Positions 6,043 through 15,185 of a stretch of 30,166 bases of DNA are shown here, in pieces. Positions within the stretch are counted from its first letter, which is position 1; the number at the start of each line of letters is the position of its first letter. The DNA is from a virus, in the IMG/VR virus record IMGVR_UViG_3300028388_002122, positions 1 through 30,166 of that record. One strand, 5' to 3'. The position numbers and the translations under genes were made by a program. The notes beneath the pieces were generated by a model that was not told the origin of the DNA, ran no database searches, and was given only the letters and a program-made list of their open reading frames with translations.

Positions 6043-6069
6043 AAAAGGGCGCTTCGGCGCCCTTTTTTT
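6043..6069. terminator. Rho-independent terminator shared by gp32 and the opposing late operon
   Basis: AAAAGGGCGC (6043-6052), a TTCG tetraloop (6053-6056) and GCGCCC followed by seven T (6057-6069). The GC-rich stem with a UUCG-type loop is very stable. In the + direction the U tract is ideal. In the - direction the stem is followed by four U, so it can also stop the operon ending at 6068. The stop codon of the - strand gene lies within the T tract. Confidence 0.9.
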
Positions 6070-7639
6070 ATGCTCCAGAATAAGCGTCTGCGCGCGTACC
6101 GTTAGAGTTTGTTGGTGATGGCATTGCGCCATTGTCAATCGTGCTTGTCTGGTTGCTGACGGTTGTCGGTGCGTTCGTATTGTTCACGATGGTAACATTA
6201 CCACCGCCTGCTGCACCAGCAGCATCCATAGTCCCTCTTTCAATCGCTTGCCCGATAGGAATTTCTGCGACTTGACTCATTGCACTGCTAATCTGTGAGA
6301 TAGGTGCTGCCTTGAGCCCTTGCCCAAAATCTACCTCATCATAGCCGTCAAAGAATCCTTCGCCAATCTTACCACCATTCCACATCTTATCAAAGATAGG
6401 AATTGCAAACGCAACTGCTTTTCCTAGTTCTTCGATATTATCTTTGAAGTCGTCCATGTCTGCATTGGCAATTTTGTCAATGCCGTCGCCAAGTTGAAAC
6501 AGAGAGGTTGACAAAGCATCAAAGCCAGCAAGGTTTGCAATATCAATTTCAGAGAGAAGTTTTAGATCATCTGCGATTCTTTCGAAAACGCTAGGTGCAT
6601 TATCGTCAGTGAAGATACTAGAAATGAAGTTGCCTAGATTGCCTACAAACTCGCCTGCGGTGAGTGCTGCAATGCCGGCGGCGACAGAAGCAGCAGCAGG
6701 GCCAAATCCAACCAGTTTCATCATGTCAATGTCGTCGCTTGACAACGCAGCCAATCCTGTGCCAAGATTGACCATAATGTCTCGCATTCCCGAGCCGTCT
6801 GCTCCTATTGCACTTGCAAGTGCACCAAAGCCAGCAAACGCAGTGAAGAATGCGCCCAAGCCAACACCGAGTAAGCCAAGCCCTGTCGCTGCAGGTCCTG
6901 CTAAGCCTGTGGCTCCTAGTATCCCACCTGCTGCTAACAAGCCACCAAACGCCGCCAGATCGCGCCCAGCGAACGCTCCGAGACCTTCTGCTATGTTGAC
7001 CATGATATTTTTTAACGCGACACCATCAGCATTCAGATAACTTGCTGCAGCATCACCCGCTGCTAGTCCTGCAAAGAACCCACCAATGCCTGCGCCTAGT
7101 GCAAACATACCGAAGCCCGCTTTCATAGAACGCCCTGGTCCAAACAGCGCACCCATAGCACCACCAGCCGCTAGAAGCCCACCTACTTTTAGAAGACCTT
7201 CAGTGTTCATTTCAGCAAAGCCGTCGGTCAATGTTTTCATAACACTGGTAAGTTTTGTGAGGTCAGTGTCCATCCATGTCAGTGCTTTATCGCCTGCTGC
7301 TAGCCCTGCAAAGAATCCACCAATACCAAAACCCAGTGCAGCCATACCGACGCCAATGCCAGCGCCAGTACCTGCTATTTTGCCAAACGAACTTGCGAAA
7401 CTTCCTTCTTGAGGAGCAATCGCAGATGCGGGATCATCTGGTCCAGGTATGGGCGCTCTCGACTCTCTACGGGCTTCTTCTTCTCTTGCTCTTTGTCGGC
7501 GCATTTCAATAAAGAAATCACGAAACCTTTGATTGGTATCAATCTCGGTTGCGTACTGTTCTTTTTGTAATGCTTGAATATCCTGAAGATACTCAGCATT
7601 GAGTAGATTGGATTCTACAATGTCATCCAGAGTTGCCAT
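6068..7639 (-). CDS. Probable tail tape-measure/hub protein (gp29-like role)
   Basis: 523 residues. Residues 1-80 are charged and helical (QRFRDFFIEMRRQRAREEE). From about 87 to 335 the protein is Gly/Ala-rich and hydrophobic with imperfect repeats of about 75-80 residues: GIGGFFAGLAAGD occurs at 105-117 and 184-196, with a related GLGAFFTAFAG near 260, and GGLLAAGG occurs twice. The C-terminus is Asn/Thr/Ser-rich (NVTIVNNTNAPTTVS). Such glycine-rich hydrophobic middle parts are typical of tape measures, and the length is near T4 gp29 (590 aa). It follows gp26 and a gp51-like frame, which in T4 are neighbours of gene 29. The start overlaps the gp51-like frame by 17 bases. Assignment by context and composition, not by sequence match. 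Confidence 0.6.
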   Translation of the reverse strand: MATLDDIVESNLLNAEYLQDIQALQKEQYATEIDTNQRFRDFFIEMRRQRAREEEARRESRAPIPGPDDPASAIAPQEGSFASSFGKIAGTGAGIGVGMAALGFGIGGFFAGLAAGDKALTWMDTDLTKLTSVMKTLTDGFAEMNTEGLLKVGGLLAAGGAMGALFGPGRSMKAGFGMFALGAGIGGFFAGLAAGDAAASYLNADGVALKNIMVNIAEGLGAFAGRDLAAFGGLLAAGGILGATGLAGPAATGLGLLGVGLGAFFTAFAGFGALASAIGADGSGMRDIMVNLGTGLAALSSDDIDMMKLVGFGPAAASVAAGIAALTAGEFVGNLGNFISSIFTDDNAPSVFERIADDLKLLSEIDIANLAGFDALSTSLFQLGDGIDKIANADMDDFKDNIEELGKAVAFAIPIFDKMWNGGKIGEGFFDGYDEVDFGQGLKAAPISQISSAMSQVAEIPIGQAIERGTMDAAGAAGGGNVTIVNNTNAPTTVSNQTSTIDNGAMPSPTNSNGTRADAYSGA

Positions 7640-7814
7640 GCGATTCTCTCAGTTGCTTCTCTTCTTCTAGCGCTTGTAAGAGCAAGATTAGATGAACCTC
7701 TTTCTCCCAAGGCATCATCATTTCTAGTTCTGTTAATGAGTATTTATGATGCCTCGACAACAAAAAACTCGTTTTATAATGATTCGCTAGAGTTTCATGT
7801 GAGAGGCATACTAA
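7623..7814 (-). CDS. gp51-like -1 frame extension of gp26 (tail assembly chaperone)
   Basis: In the -1 frame relative to gp26, the reading frame from the gp26 stop region stays open for 63 codons to TGA 7623-7625. It encodes KYSLTELEMMMPWEKEVHLI followed by LLLQALEEEKQ. This Y-S-L-x-E-L-E-x-M-x-P-W-E pattern and Glu-rich end are typical of the downstream partner in phage tail-assembly chaperone pairs and of small gp51-like proteins. There is no ATG before the conserved part; the only ATGs are the three Met codons inside it, so normal initiation would remove the conserved front (a TTG is possible). Expression by frameshift from gp26 would give a product of about 293 residues. It overlaps the tape-measure-like start. 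Confidence 0.55.
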   Translation of the reverse strand, partial: LVCLSHETLANHYKTSFLLSRHHKYSLTELEMMMPWEKEVHLILLLQALEEEKQLRESHGNSG

Positions 7815-7820
7815 AAAAAA
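7765..7820 (-). other. Candidate -1 frameshift signal: T7 slippery run plus downstream hairpin
   Basis: On the - strand gp26 ends GAT TTT TTT TAG. The heptamer T TTT TTT (7820-7814) fits the X XXY YYZ rule, and a slip of -1 enters the gp51-like frame at TTA. About 18 bases further, AAACTC (7795-7790) can pair with GAGTTT (7770-7765), a 6-bp stem with a 19-base loop that could stimulate slipping. The stop codon directly after the run is also typical of such sites. Confidence 0.5.
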
Positions 7821-8503
7821 TCTTGAATGCCTCTTAGTTCAATGTGCGTATGCTCACCACACTTAGTACAGTCGAAGTCAATATCACAAGCAACCTTAGG
7901 AATGTCGAACAGAAAACTGCTGACCTTCTTGAACTGCTCACGCGTCATCGACTCTAAGAATCTACGGATACTGTCTTCTGTTTCGTCTTCGATATCAATT
8001 CTTTCTTCGTCTACGAAGACTGCTTCAAGGCTGCTTGCAAGAATGTTGAAGCCCATTTCACCTTCGTCGTCAACATCTTTTAAATCCATGTAACTGGGAT
8101 AGCGCATCTGCACAGAAATCTTTTCATCAAGGTCGATGATGTTATTGCGAGGTGCGGATTCACATCTGATATCATCAAGATTCAATTCGTATGGGTTTTC
8201 ATGCTCACAAGATTTGCACTTGATATTAAGATTAGCCTTCTCACCAACAGACTTTGCGCGCAGTTTGATGAAAAGATATTCTAGATCAAAGGTAGTGAGT
8301 TTCGAAACATCAACATTATTGCTTACGCATGCACTGACAGTATCTATGACCGCATCCATAATCTGCACAGTGTCTTTGGACTCTGCAGCCATCATGAGAA
8401 CTTTTTCTTCTTTTACCAGATAGGGGCGAAACTTAATTTTCTTACCCGTAGATGGTAGGGTCAATTCATACTTCGGCAATTCATTCAAAGTCGGTAAAGA
8501 CAT
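7811..8503 (-). CDS. 26: gp26-like baseplate hub / tail assembly protein
   Basis: 230 residues. It starts MSLPTLNELPKYELTLPSTG, continues KKIKFRPYLVKEEKVLMMA and has a Cys pair CKSCEHENPY, a second pair CTKCGEHTHIELRG, and ends IQDFF. This arrangement, an N-terminal strand region followed by KEEKxLxxA and paired CxxC zinc ribbons, is that of the T4 gp26 family (T4_baseplate). In T4, gp26 takes part in hub assembly. RBS TGGAG precedes the start. The last codons form a run of eight T, see the frameshift entry. It lies directly upstream of the gp51-like frame and the tape-measure-like gene. Confidence 0.8.
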   Translation of the reverse strand: MSLPTLNELPKYELTLPSTGKKIKFRPYLVKEEKVLMMAAESKDTVQIMDAVIDTVSACVSNNVDVSKLTTFDLEYLFIKLRAKSVGEKANLNIKCKSCEHENPYELNLDDIRCESAPRNNIIDLDEKISVQMRYPSYMDLKDVDDEGEMGFNILASSLEAVFVDEERIDIEDETEDSIRRFLESMTREQFKKVSSFLFDIPKVACDIDFDCTKCGEHTHIELRGIQDFF

Positions 8504-8516
8504 TATTTAATCTCCA

Positions 8517-9200
8517 TTAAATATTAGCGGCTACTGCTCCAACAATTCCTGCTAGTGCATTCTTAACTTTGTTCAGAGGTGTTAGTTTTTCACCTGTCCA
8601 ATGCTGATACGAAAACTCTACAGTAATAGTGCTGATTTCGTTTGTAGCACCATCAGAAAATGTTTCGTTTGTTACACTGATAGGATATGCTCTATCCAGA
8701 ATCCAACGATAGTTTTTTTGAAGTTGTGTTCCTATATCTAAGTCGAAACTTAAATTAATAGGACCAAAGTTGATATCTTTGTTATAAACCGGATAACTCA
8801 CGCCCTTTTCAAGTTGATAGATTTCAATCTTTCGGCAGTACGAATCTGGATAACTTGCTTCATAACGCCCTTCAATATCATCATAGCGATTGAGCGCTGC
8901 TCGCTGCCATGCTTCGAAATACTCTCTCGCACCCTGGTCGTTCAACACACGAAAAGTCATACTGATCGAAGGGTTGACAAATCCATAAACCACATCTTGC
9001 TTGACAACGCCTAGTTCACGCTGTACAGTAGAAAGTTGTCTTGACGGTAAAGTCACGCTGGTGCATAACACACCATACTCATACGCATTCTGTTCTCTAA
9101 GAATAGAAGGCAGATACACATAGTAAAGATTTGTGCGAGCAAGCCCACGCCCATTTGTGACAATTGACTTTAACTCTTCTACTGTTCCTGACCTAAGCAT
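8517..9200 (-). CDS. Tail tube-like protein (gp19/gp54 family)
   Basis: 227 residues. It contains LCTSVTLPSRQLSTVQRELG and later VVKQDVVYGFVNPSISMTFR, then FEAWQRAALN. Polarised strands at the end (STITVEFSYQHWTGE) complete a tail-tube fold. T4 gp19 (tube) and gp54 (tube initiator on the baseplate) share this fold; which one this gene replaces is not certain. The position between hub assembly genes favours a baseplate-associated tube protein (gp54-like) over the main tube, which usually lies beside the sheath gene. Its start overlaps the previous stop by 8 bases, with GGAG upstream. Confidence 0.6.
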   Translation of the reverse strand: MLRSGTVEELKSIVTNGRGLARTNLYYVYLPSILREQNAYEYGVLCTSVTLPSRQLSTVQRELGVVKQDVVYGFVNPSISMTFRVLNDQGAREYFEAWQRAALNRYDDIEGRYEASYPDSYCRKIEIYQLEKGVSYPVYNKDINFGPINLSFDLDIGTQLQKNYRWILDRAYPISVTNETFSDGATNEISTITVEFSYQHWTGEKLTPLNKVKNALAGIVGAVAANI

Positions 9201-9783
9201 TCATTATTCTCCGAGAGTCTTTATAAACTTGAGAAGCAGTTCCTTTTTGCCATTGAGCAACAGGCAAGAATGTTGCAATCTCCCACTCAGGTGGTGGAAT
9301 GTATGCAAGTCGCCCTTCGACCTGACTAGTCAAGTAATGCTTAAAACAGGGCTTGAAGTATTTGAACTTTGCTGCTCTGTTCAAAAACTCATATGAGACT
9401 TCGAACTTAGTAGTCTCATTATACTTCTTGTTGTTTGTAATATCGATTAAATTGTCGAGAAACTTAGCGCGAAGAGGTATGGGCAGATAGTGTACATTCA
9501 TACCATAGAAACCTTTCGGCGCTGGACCGATGGCGATGATCAACGGAAACGCATCCCAATAAGGCAGTGTGTCACGATGCTTCGCATCATAGAAAAACAT
9601 GTACATCGAACCAGAAGCAGAGCGTGCTTTTTTCTGAATGGGATCTTCATTCATCAATGCGCGACGATTGATGTTACGCATGTTCTGTACTTTACGACGA
9701 AACCACTCGCGCGACTCTCTAGTCCGCGGTGTAATACCAGCACGGAATGCTTCTAGTTCTACTGTCTGAAAAAGATTGCTCAT
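9193..9783 (-). CDS. Conserved T4-like phage protein, probable virion assembly role
   Basis: 196 residues, starting MSNLFQTVELEAFRAGITPR. Motifs: SREWFRRKVQNMRNINRRAL, SGSMYMFFYDAKHRDTLPYW, FPLIIAIG, GFYGMNVHYLPIPLRAKFLD and FKYFKPCFKHYLTSQVEGR, ending PPEWEIATFLPVAQWQKGT. I recall this architecture from T4-like cyanophages and pelagiphages, where it occurs near tail and head-completion genes without a proven function. Very basic and aromatic, so DNA or protein binding in the virion is possible. No Shine-Dalgarno is evident. Not assigned to a T4 gene. Confidence 0.6.
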   Translation of the reverse strand: MSNLFQTVELEAFRAGITPRTRESREWFRRKVQNMRNINRRALMNEDPIQKKARSASGSMYMFFYDAKHRDTLPYWDAFPLIIAIGPAPKGFYGMNVHYLPIPLRAKFLDNLIDITNNKKYNETTKFEVSYEFLNRAAKFKYFKPCFKHYLTSQVEGRLAYIPPPEWEIATFLPVAQWQKGTASQVYKDSRRIMNA

Positions 9784-9792
9784 GATTTTTAT

Positions 9793-10506
9793 TTATCTAA
9801 ATTTTCTTTGTTCAATTGTTTTTCTAATCCTTTCTTTTTGCTCTTCGGTTCGATTTATTGAAATGCCACCAACAAAAACTCTGAACGACTCTGCTTGCGT
9901 ATAATTGTGATTCTTAATATACACATCAGGAAATGCTTGAAACCACCCATTCTCACAAGGCTGTAATAATCTCTTTTCGTATAGTTCGAAAACTCTAGGA
10001 GAAGAAAATAGGTGTCTTTTATGAAAAATTAACAGGTCCGCTAATTGATTATTGGTCATTGTCTTTTCGATTTTATTTTTCCAATAAGAATTATCGCCTA
10101 TTTCAGCATCACCACAACTTATTCCAAAAACAAAATTTCTTTCGTAACATTTTTTAACTTCTGAAATCCAATCAATCTCGGTATTAATAGTCACATCATA
10201 TCTGCATCTAACTATCATGTCATATTCTTTTGGAACATCAAGCGTTAGTTGTAGAGCGTGACCAATTATTTGTTTATATCCTTGCCTTGTTTTTTCTTTT
10301 ATCCACTCATACTTTATACTGTTCGCACCTCGTTCCAAATAATCAGATTCTGGCTCTTGGTAGATAGTATATTTTTCGCCCTCTATTTCATGACCTCGCC
10401 ATGTGCTGAAAAAGAAATCATAATCGGGGAAAACTTTACGATATTCCGCTATATTTTCTTTGTAATTGCCGCGAGGCAGACCAGAAAAACATACAGCGAC
10501 TTTCAT
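9793..10506 (-). CDS. Putative glycosyltransferase-like protein, probably acquired
   Basis: 237 residues. It begins MKVAVCFSGLPRGNYKENI, and has DYDFFFSTWRG, then EYDMIVRCRYDVTIN. A start of the type VCxSGxPR plus a (I/V)RxRYD motif is typical of a group of glycosyltransferase-like enzymes in surface polysaccharide loci and in phages; the RYD aspartate may serve in nucleotide-sugar binding. Its DNA is visibly more AT-rich than the structural genes beside it and it has no structural-protein features, so it looks like a moron gene inserted between gp4 and the tail genes. It overlaps gp4 (ATGA). Target could be the phage particle or the host surface. Confidence 0.45.
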   Translation of the reverse strand: MKVAVCFSGLPRGNYKENIAEYRKVFPDYDFFFSTWRGHEIEGEKYTIYQEPESDYLERGANSIKYEWIKEKTRQGYKQIIGHALQLTLDVPKEYDMIVRCRYDVTINTEIDWISEVKKCYERNFVFGISCGDAEIGDNSYWKNKIEKTMTNNQLADLLIFHKRHLFSSPRVFELYEKRLLQPCENGWFQAFPDVYIKNHNYTQAESFRVFVGGISINRTEEQKERIRKTIEQRKFR

Positions 10507-10979
10507 ATTTTTTTTCTACGAAAAGGTTTTAATGGCTTGATAGATTTAGGCATGATGCCCTTGCTCTCAAGTTCTTTTTCTGTCCAAATCTCAAAGCCCC
10601 AACCCTGATCTTTCGCATATTCTTTAGCGGCTTCCCATTTATTTATATTCTTAATGTAGGTATAACCTTCAACAATGTAGCGTTTTGTTCTACGATTACC
10701 AGTCGGTGGTGACAACTCTTTTGCTGGTTTGATTTCGACAAGCACAGTCTCACCCGATTCATACACAATTTTTAAATCCACGAAATATCGATGAATCTTC
10801 TTATCGACTTCATATAGATATGGTATGACGACCTCTTCGCTAGACCAGTATTTCACTTTAGGGTTTTCATCACACCACTTGAAGCAGTGCCTCTCCCACA
10901 TAGAACGGTAGATCACATTACGAGGATCGCCTTTATACTTGGCTGGATTCTTAACTTTGTATTTGCCTTTGTATGTCAT
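10503..10979 (-). CDS. 4: gp4-like head completion protein
   Basis: 158 residues. It starts MTYKGKYKVKNPAKYKGDPR, continues NVIYRSMWERHCFKWCDENP, then EEVVIPY, HRYFVDLKI and VLVEIKPAKE. This is the T4 gp4 (gp50/gp65) head completion family, which has a TnsA/restriction-like nuclease fold; candidate active-site residues are Glu29, Asp68 and Glu82-x-Lys84, all present. It acts on filled heads before tail joining. First gene of the - strand late operon, 33 bases behind the expected start of a late transcript. It ends in a Lys/Arg-rich tail. Confidence 0.88.
   Translation of the reverse strand: MTYKGKYKVKNPAKYKGDPRNVIYRSMWERHCFKWCDENPKVKYWSSEEVVIPYLYEVDKKIHRYFVDLKIVYESGETVLVEIKPAKELSPPTGNRRTKRYIVEGYTYIKNINKWEAAKEYAKDQGWGFEIWTEKELESKGIMPKSIKPLKPFRRKKI
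10640..10647 (-). promoter_or_regulatory. Internal late promoter candidate in gp4
   Basis: On the - strand an exact TATAAATA occurs inside gp4, about 134 bases before the start of the glycosyltransferase-like gene. It matches the T4-type late element used before several + strand genes here, and could boost the downstream genes. Its place in mid-gene makes a chance match possible. Confidence 0.35.
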
Positions 10980-11033: not shown

Positions 11034-12212
11034 ATGTCAAGTATTACAACCAACCTTCCTGATCAGGAGCCAGCAACGGCGACTGAAGAAAGAGAAATTG
11101 CTAATCGCAGAATTCCTGACAATGAGAATGTTGACGCAACAAGCCCTTCTCAAGAAGTTGTTGAAGAGGCAAGAAACTATCGTTATCCTCTGACGCTTTC
11201 AAAAAGTTATCCTGCTAGAATTATTTTCAAAGTGGTTAAAGTCGAAGGGGTAGATATTGCAGAAAAGATAGGCGATACTTATAAATCTGTTAGCGAAGGC
11301 TTTAAATCTCTTGTTGCTGAGATTCCTGGAGCAGATGAATTTGCACAGAAAATTACAGGCGAATCACTTACTGCATCTGTTTCTGACAAAAAGGTTGATG
11401 CGAAGACAAAGAAAGAAATAGAAAAAACTGAGAGCCAAGTAAAGCCTGTCCTTCAGTCTTATGAGAATCGTCAAGGTGGTATAACAATAGGCACTGTAAC
11501 TTTACCTCTCCAGCGCGATTTAAGATTTAGTGACAACGCACAGTACGAAACAGCGAATCTTGGTACCGTTGGCGGCGCGTTAGAGCAAGCGCTACAGGGT
11601 CAGAATCCATTTGCGGGCTTTAATTCAAATGGTCAGTTTGCAAGAACTGCATCCGCTCTCGCAGCATCTGCTGTAGCAAAGGGTGCGGGTGAAGTTGCTG
11701 GTGCTGCTATCGGTTCTGCGTTTGGTACCGCAGGTGCTGTTGTCGGTGCGTCTGCTCTAGGTGGTACACTAGAAGGTCTGTCTCCTGCAGTGCGAAACGC
11801 AACGCGAATTGCTACAGCACCTAATCAGCGCACACTCTTTCAACAAGTACAGATTCGTAGTTTTGCGTTTACTTTTAAAATGATTGCAAACAACCGTGAC
11901 GAAGCAAACGAAATTAAAAATATCGTAAAGTTCTTTCGTCAAGAATTATATCCCGAAAAGATTGTGCTAGGCGAATCTGGTCTTCCTCTTGCGTATAAAT
12001 TTCCGAACATGTTTGAGATTGATATTCGTAATCGATACGACGAAAATCCTTCGTTCAAGATCCAACGCTGCTACCTGCGCGATATTCAAACATCGTTCAA
12101 CTCAACCGCATCGGGCATGTACAGCGATGGTAATTTTGTCGAAGTTGACATTTCGCTTTCGTTCCAAGAAATCGTCGCCCTTGACAAACAGAAAGTGAGA
12201 GATGGTTACTAA
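11034..12212 (+). CDS. 48: gp48-like baseplate tail tube cap
   Basis: 392 residues. The N-terminus is acidic and flexible (1-50), followed by YPLTLSKSYPARIIFKVVKV. The middle is Ala/Gly-rich (about 190-255). The C-terminus holds FAFTFKMIANNRDEANEIKN, FFRQELYPEK, KFPNMFEIDI and QRCYLRDIQTSFNSTASGMY, then FVEVDISLSFQE. This C-terminal tube-like domain is characteristic of marine gp48, which caps the baseplate hub and starts the tail tube together with gp54. First gene behind a late promoter; its TAA shares a base with the ATG of gp53. Confidence 0.78.
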   Translation: MSSITTNLPDQEPATATEEREIANRRIPDNENVDATSPSQEVVEEARNYRYPLTLSKSYPARIIFKVVKVEGVDIAEKIGDTYKSVSEGFKSLVAEIPGADEFAQKITGESLTASVSDKKVDAKTKKEIEKTESQVKPVLQSYENRQGGITIGTVTLPLQRDLRFSDNAQYETANLGTVGGALEQALQGQNPFAGFNSNGQFARTASALAASAVAKGAGEVAGAAIGSAFGTAGAVVGASALGGTLEGLSPAVRNATRIATAPNQRTLFQQVQIRSFAFTFKMIANNRDEANEIKNIVKFFRQELYPEKIVLGESGLPLAYKFPNMFEIDIRNRYDENPSFKIQRCYLRDIQTSFNSTASGMYSDGNFVEVDISLSFQEIVALDKQKVRDGY

Positions 12213-12955
12213 TGTCTAATTATTTTGAAAACTTTCCTAAGGTTCTATATCTTTTTGGTAACGAAGAGCAGCCAGTTCTCTTTCAACAACTGACTAAGTA
12301 TGTTGATTTGGTCGATCAGTTAAAAGAAGATGCTGGCGCATATATTGAGTATGAGATCCGAGACGGAGATCGCCCTGATACACTTTCATACCGTCTGTAT
12401 GGTAAGAGCGAATACGACTGGACTTTCTTCTTGATGAACGAAAGACTGCGCGAAGTTGGATGGCCAAAAACGCTTGGGCAGTTGTATACATACGCACAGT
12501 CTACACTTTTTCCGAACTACACTGCGAAACTTGATGTTACAGCAGCAGACAGTGCGACGGTGCGTGGGCTTGCAGACAAATATCCTATCGGGCAAGCAGT
12601 GCTTGTGCAAGGTAGCAACGGGATTGTAATTCGTAAAAATCTGAATGTTGGTGAAATTACTCTTTCTTCTGATAGCGATATCACTGGCAAAACTGCAATG
12701 ACATACGACGACAGCGCGAATCTAAATCTTCTTGCGCTTGGCAATATCGTCTATGAATATCAAGGCACACACCACTACGAAAACGATTCAGGTGATTGGG
12801 TGGATTATTTTTATAGCAATGATCAAAAAATTCCTATCACAAACCTTGATTTTCTTATTGCTCAGAATGATGAAGCAAAACGAATCCGGATTATCAAGAA
12901 AGAATACATTGAAAAGGTTGTGGGTGAATTTAAGCGATTGCTTGAGAGGACTTAA
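12212..12955 (+). CDS. 53: gp53-like baseplate wedge protein
   Basis: 247 residues. The N-terminus (MSNYFENFPKVLYLF) and the block YEIRDGDRPDTLSYRLYG, then YDWTFFLMNERLREVGWP, are the gp53 signature, which contains a LysM-like fold. In T4, gp53 joins wedges to the hub and to neighbouring wedges. The C-terminal half (about 110-230) is beta-rich, with KIPITNLDFLIAQNDEAKRI near the end. Overlaps the gp48 stop and the next start by one base each (TAATG type), so translation is coupled. Confidence 0.85.
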   Translation: MSNYFENFPKVLYLFGNEEQPVLFQQLTKYVDLVDQLKEDAGAYIEYEIRDGDRPDTLSYRLYGKSEYDWTFFLMNERLREVGWPKTLGQLYTYAQSTLFPNYTAKLDVTAADSATVRGLADKYPIGQAVLVQGSNGIVIRKNLNVGEITLSSDSDITGKTAMTYDDSANLNLLALGNIVYEYQGTHHYENDSGDWVDYFYSNDQKIPITNLDFLIAQNDEAKRIRIIKKEYIEKVVGEFKRLLERT

Positions 12956-14319
12956 TGGCTCAGAACCAGTCACAGTTTGGTATACTTGAAGCGTCAATAA
13001 TCACATCTTCTACGAATAACGAAGACCGTGTTGTAGATGTTCGCGGTAATGTTTTAGAAGTTGTCTTCTATGAGAATCTTTACAAGCCCTATATTGACGC
13101 AACAATTGCAATCATCGACGACTTTGGTCTGCGCGACGCTTTATCCATTCAGGGCACAGAAAGATTAAAACTGGTTCTTGGGGATGCAGAAAAGCCCGAA
13201 GAGCCTGTTGCAGTAAAGTATTTCTTTTTCTCTAGAATTGCTGATGTTCAGCGCATGAACGAAAGATCAGAACTTCTTTTGATCAATCTGGTAGAAGAGC
13301 ATGTTTACATCGATTCGGTCAAGCAGTTTAGCCGTTCGTACACTGGCGAACTTGAAGATATCATTTCTACTATATCTGCGAACGAACTTGGCAAACAAGT
13401 TCAACAAGTCAACTTTGAAGGCTCGGTTCAAGGCACTCGCAAAATTATTGTACCATACATGAGCCCTCTTGAGTCTATACAGTGGCTGCGTGATCGTGCG
13501 ACAACGCGCACGGGTTCACCAATCTTTTTGTACAGTTCTCTTTACAGTGATAATCTGTTTATGTCTGATTTGGATTCTTTGTTAAAAGAACCTGTATTCA
13601 ATAATAAACTGCCGTTGAGATACACCAGCGCAACCGCAAGTGCAAGTGAGACAGAAGAGAATCTTCGCCCCTACTATGAAATTATTTCGTTCAAGCAAAC
13701 AAACTCAGAAGATACTCAAAGTCTATATGAGAATGGTGCAATAGGTTCGTACTATGCGAGCATTGATGCAGGAACAGGAACTGTGTCAGGCAGTCATATC
13801 TCTGTCCGAGATTTGATCGACGAGTTTTATACAAACGAACTTATTTCGCCCGACACTGTACAAACCATCTTTGATCCGTCGCTAGAAATTGACGGCAGAC
13901 TTTCGGATGAGTATAACTCTTTACATATTCATCAAGTGGTGTCTAGTGGAACCTACAATCAATTCAAAAGTTATCATGACGAAACTTCACTCTTAGATGC
14001 AAGCAACTCTGTGATTGAATCGCGTCTTAAGGTAAAGAATAAATTGATTCGTATGCTTTTGAAAAGAAATGTAATCGACATAGGCATGAACGGCTCTTTG
14101 TTCTTTGAAGGCAAGATGCCAGTGGGCAGAAGAATTCGTGTTCTGTTTCTGAATTCAAATGTTGAAGGCGATCTAAAAGACCCTACGAAGCAAATTGATC
14201 GTAGAAAGTCCGGCGACTATCTCGTGTTGGCAATTAATCATAGATTAGTTCAAGAAAAGCACACTGCTATTTTACGCATGAGCAAGTTAGGTGAACTACC
14301 AAAGGACTTTAGACTATGA
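12955..14319 (+). CDS. Baseplate hub protein, gp27-like
   Basis: 454 residues. It begins MAQNQSQFGILEASIITSST, then NVLEVVFYENLYKPYIDATI, typical of hub proteins whose first domain is a tube-like barrel. Other blocks: YMSPLESIQWLRDRAT, SPIFLYSSLY and, at the end, RRKSGDYLVLAINHRLVQEK. A hub protein of this size directly before a gp5-type OB-fold gene fits the gp27-gp5 pair of T4 (gp27 is 391 aa). I infer a trimeric hub ring. No close match to T4 gp27 is visible by eye, so the name rests on domain order and context. Overlaps the next gene by ATGA. Confidence 0.65.
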   Translation: MAQNQSQFGILEASIITSSTNNEDRVVDVRGNVLEVVFYENLYKPYIDATIAIIDDFGLRDALSIQGTERLKLVLGDAEKPEEPVAVKYFFFSRIADVQRMNERSELLLINLVEEHVYIDSVKQFSRSYTGELEDIISTISANELGKQVQQVNFEGSVQGTRKIIVPYMSPLESIQWLRDRATTRTGSPIFLYSSLYSDNLFMSDLDSLLKEPVFNNKLPLRYTSATASASETEENLRPYYEIISFKQTNSEDTQSLYENGAIGSYYASIDAGTGTVSGSHISVRDLIDEFYTNELISPDTVQTIFDPSLEIDGRLSDEYNSLHIHQVVSSGTYNQFKSYHDETSLLDASNSVIESRLKVKNKLIRMLLKRNVIDIGMNGSLFFEGKMPVGRRIRVLFLNSNVEGDLKDPTKQIDRRKSGDYLVLAINHRLVQEKHTAILRMSKLGELPKDFRL

Positions 14320-15185
14320 ATGTTTTAAGACCAATTCAAAAAGAATTTTATGGTGATGATTATCGTTGGTTCTTTGGCACCGTAGTTAATTCGCATCCGC
14401 CAGCAGGGCTTGAGGGTCGCGTAAAAGTTCGCATCTATGGTGTACACAATCCCGTCACAAATGAAATACCCGAGAAAGACTTGCCATGGGCTCAAGTGCT
14501 ACTACCTACAACTGAAGGGGGCGCGTCAGGCATCGGTCGTATTCCTCAGTTGATGGCTGGTGCATTTGTGTTCGGTGTATTTCTTGATGGTGTATCTTCA
14601 CAAACTCCTCTGATATTAGGCTCTTTGCCTCGTATCGAATTTCCCACTGCCATTCAAACTGGTCGTAATGTTTCGTTTCAAGATAAGTTTGAGTATGATC
14701 AAGAGCGTTTGCAAAATGTAGTGGCGCTTAAATTTAAAGACGATAAAGAAGCAAGCGCTAGTGTAGGTCTTCGCCGTCAGCAAGCGATGAAATTCTTTAT
14801 TGACAATGGGTATGAGTTGATTCAAGCCGCTGCATTGACTGGCGCAATTGAAGGTGTGTCTGGCTTTCAGACATACGACACTGAAGGCTCTGTAGATACC
14901 GTCGGCATTGTCAAGTGGAAAAACACCACTGCAGTCGGTAGTAGATTCGCCGAACTGCTACAATTTGCTGCACAGTATTCACCAAACTCTGACTGGAGAC
15001 TGTATTCGATCCAGTTGCAGTTTGTTGTTTTCGAATTACGCAATCGATTCAATCTGGTAAATAGCAAACTGATTGCCAGCACGGATATAAAAAGCGCAAG
15101 TGCAATCGTGAATCGTGAATATGTGAAGGGAACTAACCAGACAGACAATCTTGCTCTCAGAGCATACGAAGAGGTTCTTTCATAA
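14316..15185 (+). CDS. gp5-like hub protein: OB fold plus tail lysozyme-like domain
   Basis: 289 residues. Residues about 16-105 match the T4 gp5 OB fold: YRWFFGTVV, GRVKVRIYGVHNP, LPWAQVLLPTTEGGASGIGR, FVFGVFLDG and PLILGSLP. In place of T4 lysozyme, residues about 150-275 resemble the phage tail lysozyme fold (phi29 gp13 type): RQQAMKFFIDNGYELIQAAA, GAIEGVSGF, GIVKW, then QLQFVVFELRNRF. The usual catalytic Glu in GNxxxES is Val181 here (GAIEGVSG), with Glu179 two residues before, so activity is doubtful. No beta-helix is attached; that part is a separate gene (17086-18549). The OB fold should sit on the hub and lead the spike. Confidence 0.7.
   Translation: MNVLRPIQKEFYGDDYRWFFGTVVNSHPPAGLEGRVKVRIYGVHNPVTNEIPEKDLPWAQVLLPTTEGGASGIGRIPQLMAGAFVFGVFLDGVSSQTPLILGSLPRIEFPTAIQTGRNVSFQDKFEYDQERLQNVVALKFKDDKEASASVGLRRQQAMKFFIDNGYELIQAAALTGAIEGVSGFQTYDTEGSVDTVGIVKWKNTTAVGSRFAELLQFAAQYSPNSDWRLYSIQLQFVVFELRNRFNLVNSKLIASTDIKSASAIVNREYVKGTNQTDNLALRAYEEVLS

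Follow-up and report, generated by a model that had tools for sequence, protein, structure and literature searches.

How is a gp51-like protein made from a reading frame that has no ATG ahead of its conserved part? The question is raised by an uncultivated marine virus, IMG/VR record IMGVR_UViG_3300028388_002122, of which we analyzed positions 1 to 30,166 (the window, 30,166 bases). On the minus strand, a gene of the gp26 family ends in a run of eight Ts, from which a second frame, displaced by -1, continues with similarity to gp51. This locus very probably encodes a pair of tail assembly chaperones (TACs), TAC-N and TAC-NC, produced by programmed -1 frameshifting in a T4-like (Kyanoviridae-like) marine phage. 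This reading is built on what we observed directly: the slip site, its conservation, a switch of the coding frame at the site, and the homology of both parts to gp26 and gp51 of phage T4.

Slip site and extension in the window

The locus comprises the following features:
8503-7811, minus strand: gp26-like gene, short form (TAC-N), 230 amino acids (aa); Pfam PF12322 T4_baseplate and PHROG 150
7820-7814, minus strand: slippery heptamer T TTT TTT in the zero frame of gp26, read from the sequence; conserved as T TTT TTN in relatives
7814-7623, minus strand: -1 frame extension (TAC-C, gp51-like), 63 codons and a stop; PHROG 634 and frame-specific conservation
7639-6068, minus strand: tape-measure-like gene, 523 aa; named from its position and composition only

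The 3' end of the gp26-like gene reads ...GGC ATT CAA GAT TTT TTT TAG, the eighth T of the run being part of the TAG stop. After a -1 slip on T TTT TTT, base 7814 would be read twice and translation would enter a frame that is open for 63 codons, its stop ending at 7623. The predicted fusion product has 293 residues and carries GIQDFFLVCLSHE as its junction peptide, and KYSLTELEMMMPWEKE is encoded in the -1 frame after the slip. An earlier note on this DNA, made from the sequence alone, had described the same gene end, open frame, fusion length and peptide, and all its numbers were reproduced. It was also right that the extension overlaps gp26 at the slip site and the tape-measure-like gene at its end (by 17 nucleotides [nt], the ATG of the latter lying within the end of the extension), and that no ATG precedes the conserved part: upstream of KYSL, only TTG TTG at extension codons 17-18 is start-like.

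Both parts of the predicted product have homologs among baseplate hub proteins. The 230-aa protein matches Pfam PF12322 T4_baseplate (E = 1.4e-61) and PHROG 150 "baseplate hub" (E = 8e-63), and the 63-aa extension matches PHROG 634 "baseplate hub assembly catalyst" (gp51; E = 6e-20). The locus consists of a single gp26 domain with a -1 extension, and no further gp26-like domain belongs to the gp51-like part.

From this arrangement we infer the occurrence of the shift, its efficiency and a chaperone action on the tape measure. Most ribosomes would halt at TAG and yield the 230-residue short form (TAC-N, "gp26"), and some would slip one base back on T TTT TTT to produce the 293-residue TAC-NC, in which the gp26 domain is followed by the gp51-like extension. 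By analogy with lambda G/GT, the two forms would act together on the tape-measure protein, the product of the next gene, coating and guiding it.

Conservation of the slip site and candidate stimulators

We compared the window with 80 gp26-related loci from IMG/VR sharing 40-86% identity, which makes 81 sequences. They include 51 distinct gp26 genes; start codons were counted in 48 distinct complete extensions. An in-phase T TTT TTN closes gp26 in 81/81, its last base being T in 35, A in 25, C in 13, and G in 8. After the slip, the -1 frame is open in all 80 loci, with 46 complete distinct extensions spanning 60-69 codons. The extension contains a conserved block, roughly LIxLSHDxLVNHYKTNFxLMQHHxYSLTEIExMMPWEREIY, whose LSHDxLVNHYKTNF segment begins 3 codons past the slip. 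Across the relatives, no start codon is conserved upstream of this block. A slip run kept in 80/80 loci, an open -1 extension and the lack of a conserved start codon are what the earlier note had expected of the relatives.

Among the 51 distinct gp26 genes, other Phe-Phe or Phe-Leu pairs are slippery in just 2 of 45 cases. The probability of finding the XXT-TTT part in all 51 by codon usage alone corresponds to a log10 P of about -15.7, a value computed as if the sequences were independent, which does not hold. With the sequences aligned on the heptamer without gaps, the third codon base of the zero frame varies most upstream (1.52 bits), and the third base of the -1 frame varies most downstream (1.17 vs 0.77 and 0.47 bits). 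The variability switches frame at the heptamer, and selection therefore bears on the zero frame before it and on the -1 frame after it. The conservation of the slip site is due neither to chance nor to sequencing error. With the conserved heptamer and the frame switch, the central proposal of the earlier note gained support, namely that a programmed -1 frameshift joins gp26 to a gp51-like tail according to the lambda G/GT gene plan, directly ahead of the tape-measure-like gene.

The extension is matched by 248 phage records, and the T TTT TTN site is present in 11 of the 14 named phages tested. Slip site and matching -1 extension occur together in the Kyanoviridae cyanophages S-SRM01, S-8S53, P-SSM2, and S-CRM01, in Methylophilales phage Melnitz-1, and in phiM12 (Sinorhizobium), Astolliot and Milchi (Pseudomonas), Mendera (Stenotrophomonas), Ahp1 (Aeromonas), and VS2 (Vibrio, Schizotequatrovirus). 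The Ackermannviridae AV101 and Det7 possess the -1 extension and lack the slippery heptamer (L092:2300-2460 and L093:2300-2465); an ATG overlaps the gp26 stop in AV101, and an ATT stands at that place in Det7. In Erwinia phage Hallingskeid, which matches only remotely, the gene likewise ends without a heptamer. In S-SRM01 (L083:3644-3665), S-8S53 (L084:3664-3680), and P-SSM2 (L085:1490-1512), the slip site is accompanied by an ATG among the first codons of the -1 frame. These three phages could possibly make three products: the short form, the long form, and the extension alone.

Two kinds of candidate stimulators, a Shine-Dalgarno (SD)-like element and a hairpin, flank the heptamer of the window:
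7835-7830, minus strand: AAGAGG, SD-like element 9 nt upstream of the heptamer, from anti-SD pairing; probable stimulator
7809-7803, minus strand: 5' arm of the outer stem, ATGCCTC, 4 nt past the heptamer, from folding of the window hairpin
7755-7749, minus strand: 3' arm of the outer stem, GAGGCAT, from the same folding
7789-7795, minus strand: 5' arm of the inner helix, pairing with 7764-7770, from folding
7764-7770, minus strand: 3' arm of the inner helix, from folding

Most relatives have an SD-like element ahead of the heptamer. In the 51 genes, anti-SD pairing 6-20 nt upstream has a median of -5.4 kcal/mol, versus a background of -0.9, and the AAGAGG of the window (-5.8 kcal/mol) beats every in-gene background window. 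The element is not independent proof, because the Gly codon that supplies its GG is also conserved in the protein. AAGAGG is nevertheless a probable stimulator of the slip. The earlier note had reported a 6-base-pair stem 18 bases downstream; this stem exists (7789-7795/7764-7770), but it is merely the inner part of a larger hairpin (-18 kcal/mol, z = -3.2) whose outer stem starts 4 nt past the heptamer. In six distinct sequences of the window's clade (the nearest clade, L002-L012), this outer stem is 90.5% paired. Its covariation is weak, consisting of one A-U to G-C double change that is equalled in 79 of 500 shuffles and is not significant. The hairpin, like the SD-like element, may contribute to stimulation. 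RNAalifold detected no downstream RNA structure conserved in the whole family, and the individual z-scores average only -1.1; the hairpin is found in the window's clade only.

T4 genes 26 and 51 and known chaperone systems

T4 does without the slip: its gene 26 ends GAG TTC TTT GAG TTA CTA TAA, a sequence lacking a slippery heptamer (genes 26 and 51 occupy L082:3803-5229). T4 gp26 and gp51 had been described in the earlier note as separate hub assembly factors; their domain content shows that they are not simply unrelated. Residues 1-201 of T4 gp51 (249 aa) match Pfam T4_baseplate (E = 3.9e-52), and the protein matches PHROG 150 over residues 3-248 and PHROG 634 over residues 147-246 (E = 1.2e-23). 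T4 gp51 itself thus combines a gp26-type domain with the same extension. Using hhalign, the marine extension was aligned with the T4-type gp51 C-terminus over 39 columns (E = 5.4e-06). The gp26 of the window shares 24% identity with T4 gp26 (BLASTP E = 3e-15), and between T4 gp26 and gp51 the similarity is weak (BLASTP E = 2e-06). By domain content, T4 gene 51 is a whole fusion of gp26 domain and extension, and gene 26 is the short form. Since T4 gp51 is composed in this way, the marine "gp51" open reading frame (ORF) is, by homology, the C-terminal domain only. T4 gp26 and the gp51 C-terminus are therefore homologous to the short form and the extension of the window. However, the short and long forms of T4 are separate, divergently transcribed genes, whereas the window has one gp26 domain followed by a -1 extension.

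In a phylogenetic tree, the T4 26 and 51 clades join as sisters that are separated from the frameshifting genes; support for this is moderate (87/77), and a long-branch warning applies. This grouping fits a duplicated and resolved frameshift, although it does not prove it. We lean slightly toward the view that genes 26 and 51 of T4 represent both halves of such a frameshift: an ancestral gp26 gene having the T TTT TTN slip and the -1 extension would have been duplicated, one copy losing the slip (26) and the other fusing the frames (51), and the marine, Vibrio, Aeromonas, rhizobial, and pseudomonad T4-like phages would have kept the ancestral frameshift. Cyanophage gp51 was described as reaching a mere ~20% of the length seen in other gp51 proteins and as lacking the first ~200 residues (Sullivan et al. 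2010, PMC3037559). It would look ~200 residues short because these residues are supplied by gp26 through the frameshift.

The earlier note considered such a pair not to be described for T4-like phages, which is not borne out. According to the papers that cite it, a previous study had identified the tail assembly chaperone genes of T4-like phages (Vladimirov, Gautam & Davidson 2022, Virology 566:9-15). It is credited with the poly-T -1 slip signals in T4-like TAC-N genes (PMC12846349) and with the finding that some T4-like phages have instead a short gene together with a separate, fused long one (PMC10885494). The window is an uncultivated marine member of this TAC-N/TAC-NC system, in whose description the SD-like element and the clade hairpin may or may not figure. 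The abstract of that work is said to state that frameshifting appears conserved in several T4-like groups and that T4's own group uses separate genes. No frameshift report naming cyanophage gp26/gp51 was found in the literature searched. New here are this member, its probable SD-like element, and the clade-specific stem, the general mechanism having been published in 2022.

The locus resembles lambda gpG/gpGT in that the gene lies just upstream of a tape-measure-like gene, has a very probable -1 frameshift near its 3' end, and would specify a short form and a C-terminally extended form. It differs from it in that no sequence similarity was found and that the link by fold is weak (2ob9). The lambda slip sequence is G GGA AAG, versus T TTT TTN here. 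The TAC locus of the Vandenendeviridae and Andersonviridae likewise has a conserved -1 frameshift, at the poly-T GTTTTT, and a -1 frame open in every genome; its downstream ORF is annotated as a separate gene, and these families differ from that of the window's phage (PMC12846349). Frameshifting at gp26 would correct the annotation of marine T4-like genomes, in which "gp51" usually appears as a separate small gene. The relatives also form a large natural alignment of a poly-U slip site, which can be used to study what sets frameshift efficiency.

Competing explanations and genomic context

Several findings weigh against a TAC-N/TAC-NC pair made by frameshifting. In S-SRM01, S-8S53, P-SSM2, VS2, and Mendera, an ATG lies very near the gp26 stop, beside the slip site, and 38 of the 48 distinct extensions, that of the window not among them, have an ATG in frame at codons 17-19. 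Relatives with an ATG may synthesize a short gp51 separately. The hairpin is not kept beyond the window's clade, RNAalifold having found no common structure in the wider family. The fold comparisons stand on both sides. The AlphaFold model of gp26 (mean pLDDT [predicted local distance difference test] of 85), compared with the PDB, has the HK97 tail assembly chaperone 2ob9 at rank 2 (2.4 A over 53 columns, probability 0.60), a weak match (E = 1.0) that is only a hint of a common fold. The model of a T4 gp51-type protein matched no chaperone or other relevant structure in the PDB, and a profile search of solved structures gave no relevant match. The start codons, together with the listing of gp51 as a separate gene by annotators, would suit a small protein with its own start near the gp26 stop, made by translational coupling next to an incidental T-run. 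We consider this very unlikely. In the window, no ATG precedes the conserved block, and where relatives have the codon 17-19 ATGs, these come only after the LSHDxLVNHYKTNF segment, which is strongly conserved. T TTT TTN persists in 80/80 loci, phages that have the ATG retain it too, and the T4 counterpart is a long protein in which both parts are already fused.

Transcription can slip on long homopolymers, and the eight consecutive Ts of the window would allow RNA polymerase, rather than the ribosome, to make the shift. However, 46 of the 81 sequences have only TTTTTTA, TTTTTTC, or TTTTTTG, the invariant feature being the ribosomal X XXY YYZ phase and not the length of the run. The SD-like element also lies upstream near the spacing of bacterial ribosomal -1 sites such as dnaX, where an SD-like element is found at a comparable distance. 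Slippage of the polymerase is hence improbable, to about the same degree as an independent gp51. Homopolymers are also error-prone, and the earlier note had itself raised the possibility that a miscounted run divides what is simply one gene. Such a miscount, or an assembly error, has practically no likelihood. The two-frame layout is common to 80 other contigs and to many finished isolate genomes, some with the T-run broken by A, C, or G, and a miscounted homopolymer is excluded because the heptamer ends in one of these bases in the 46 sequences mentioned above. Programmed ribosomal frameshifting remains the reading that we favor.

The genes around the locus are those expected of a T4-like phage. 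PHROG matches identify a tail tube gene (8517-9200), a DNA end protector (9193-9783), a head closure gene (10503-10979), a baseplate tail tube cap (11034-12212), a baseplate wedge subunit (12212-12955), and a hub/tail lysozyme (14316-15185). The ORF at 6068-7639 matched no PHROG or NCBIfam family; it has Gly/Ala-rich hydrophobic stretches, and its product would be tape-measure-like, judging from its place and composition only. Between the DNA end protector and head closure genes, inside the head/tail block, a 237-aa ORF (MKVAVCFSGLPRGN...) lies at 9793-10506. By eye, it looks like a cargo gene, possibly for a glycosyltransferase. Elsewhere in the window, the ORF at 2235-2885 carries a RHRSFSFQEFSQRY motif which, again by eye, is typical of the flavin-dependent thymidylate synthase ThyX.
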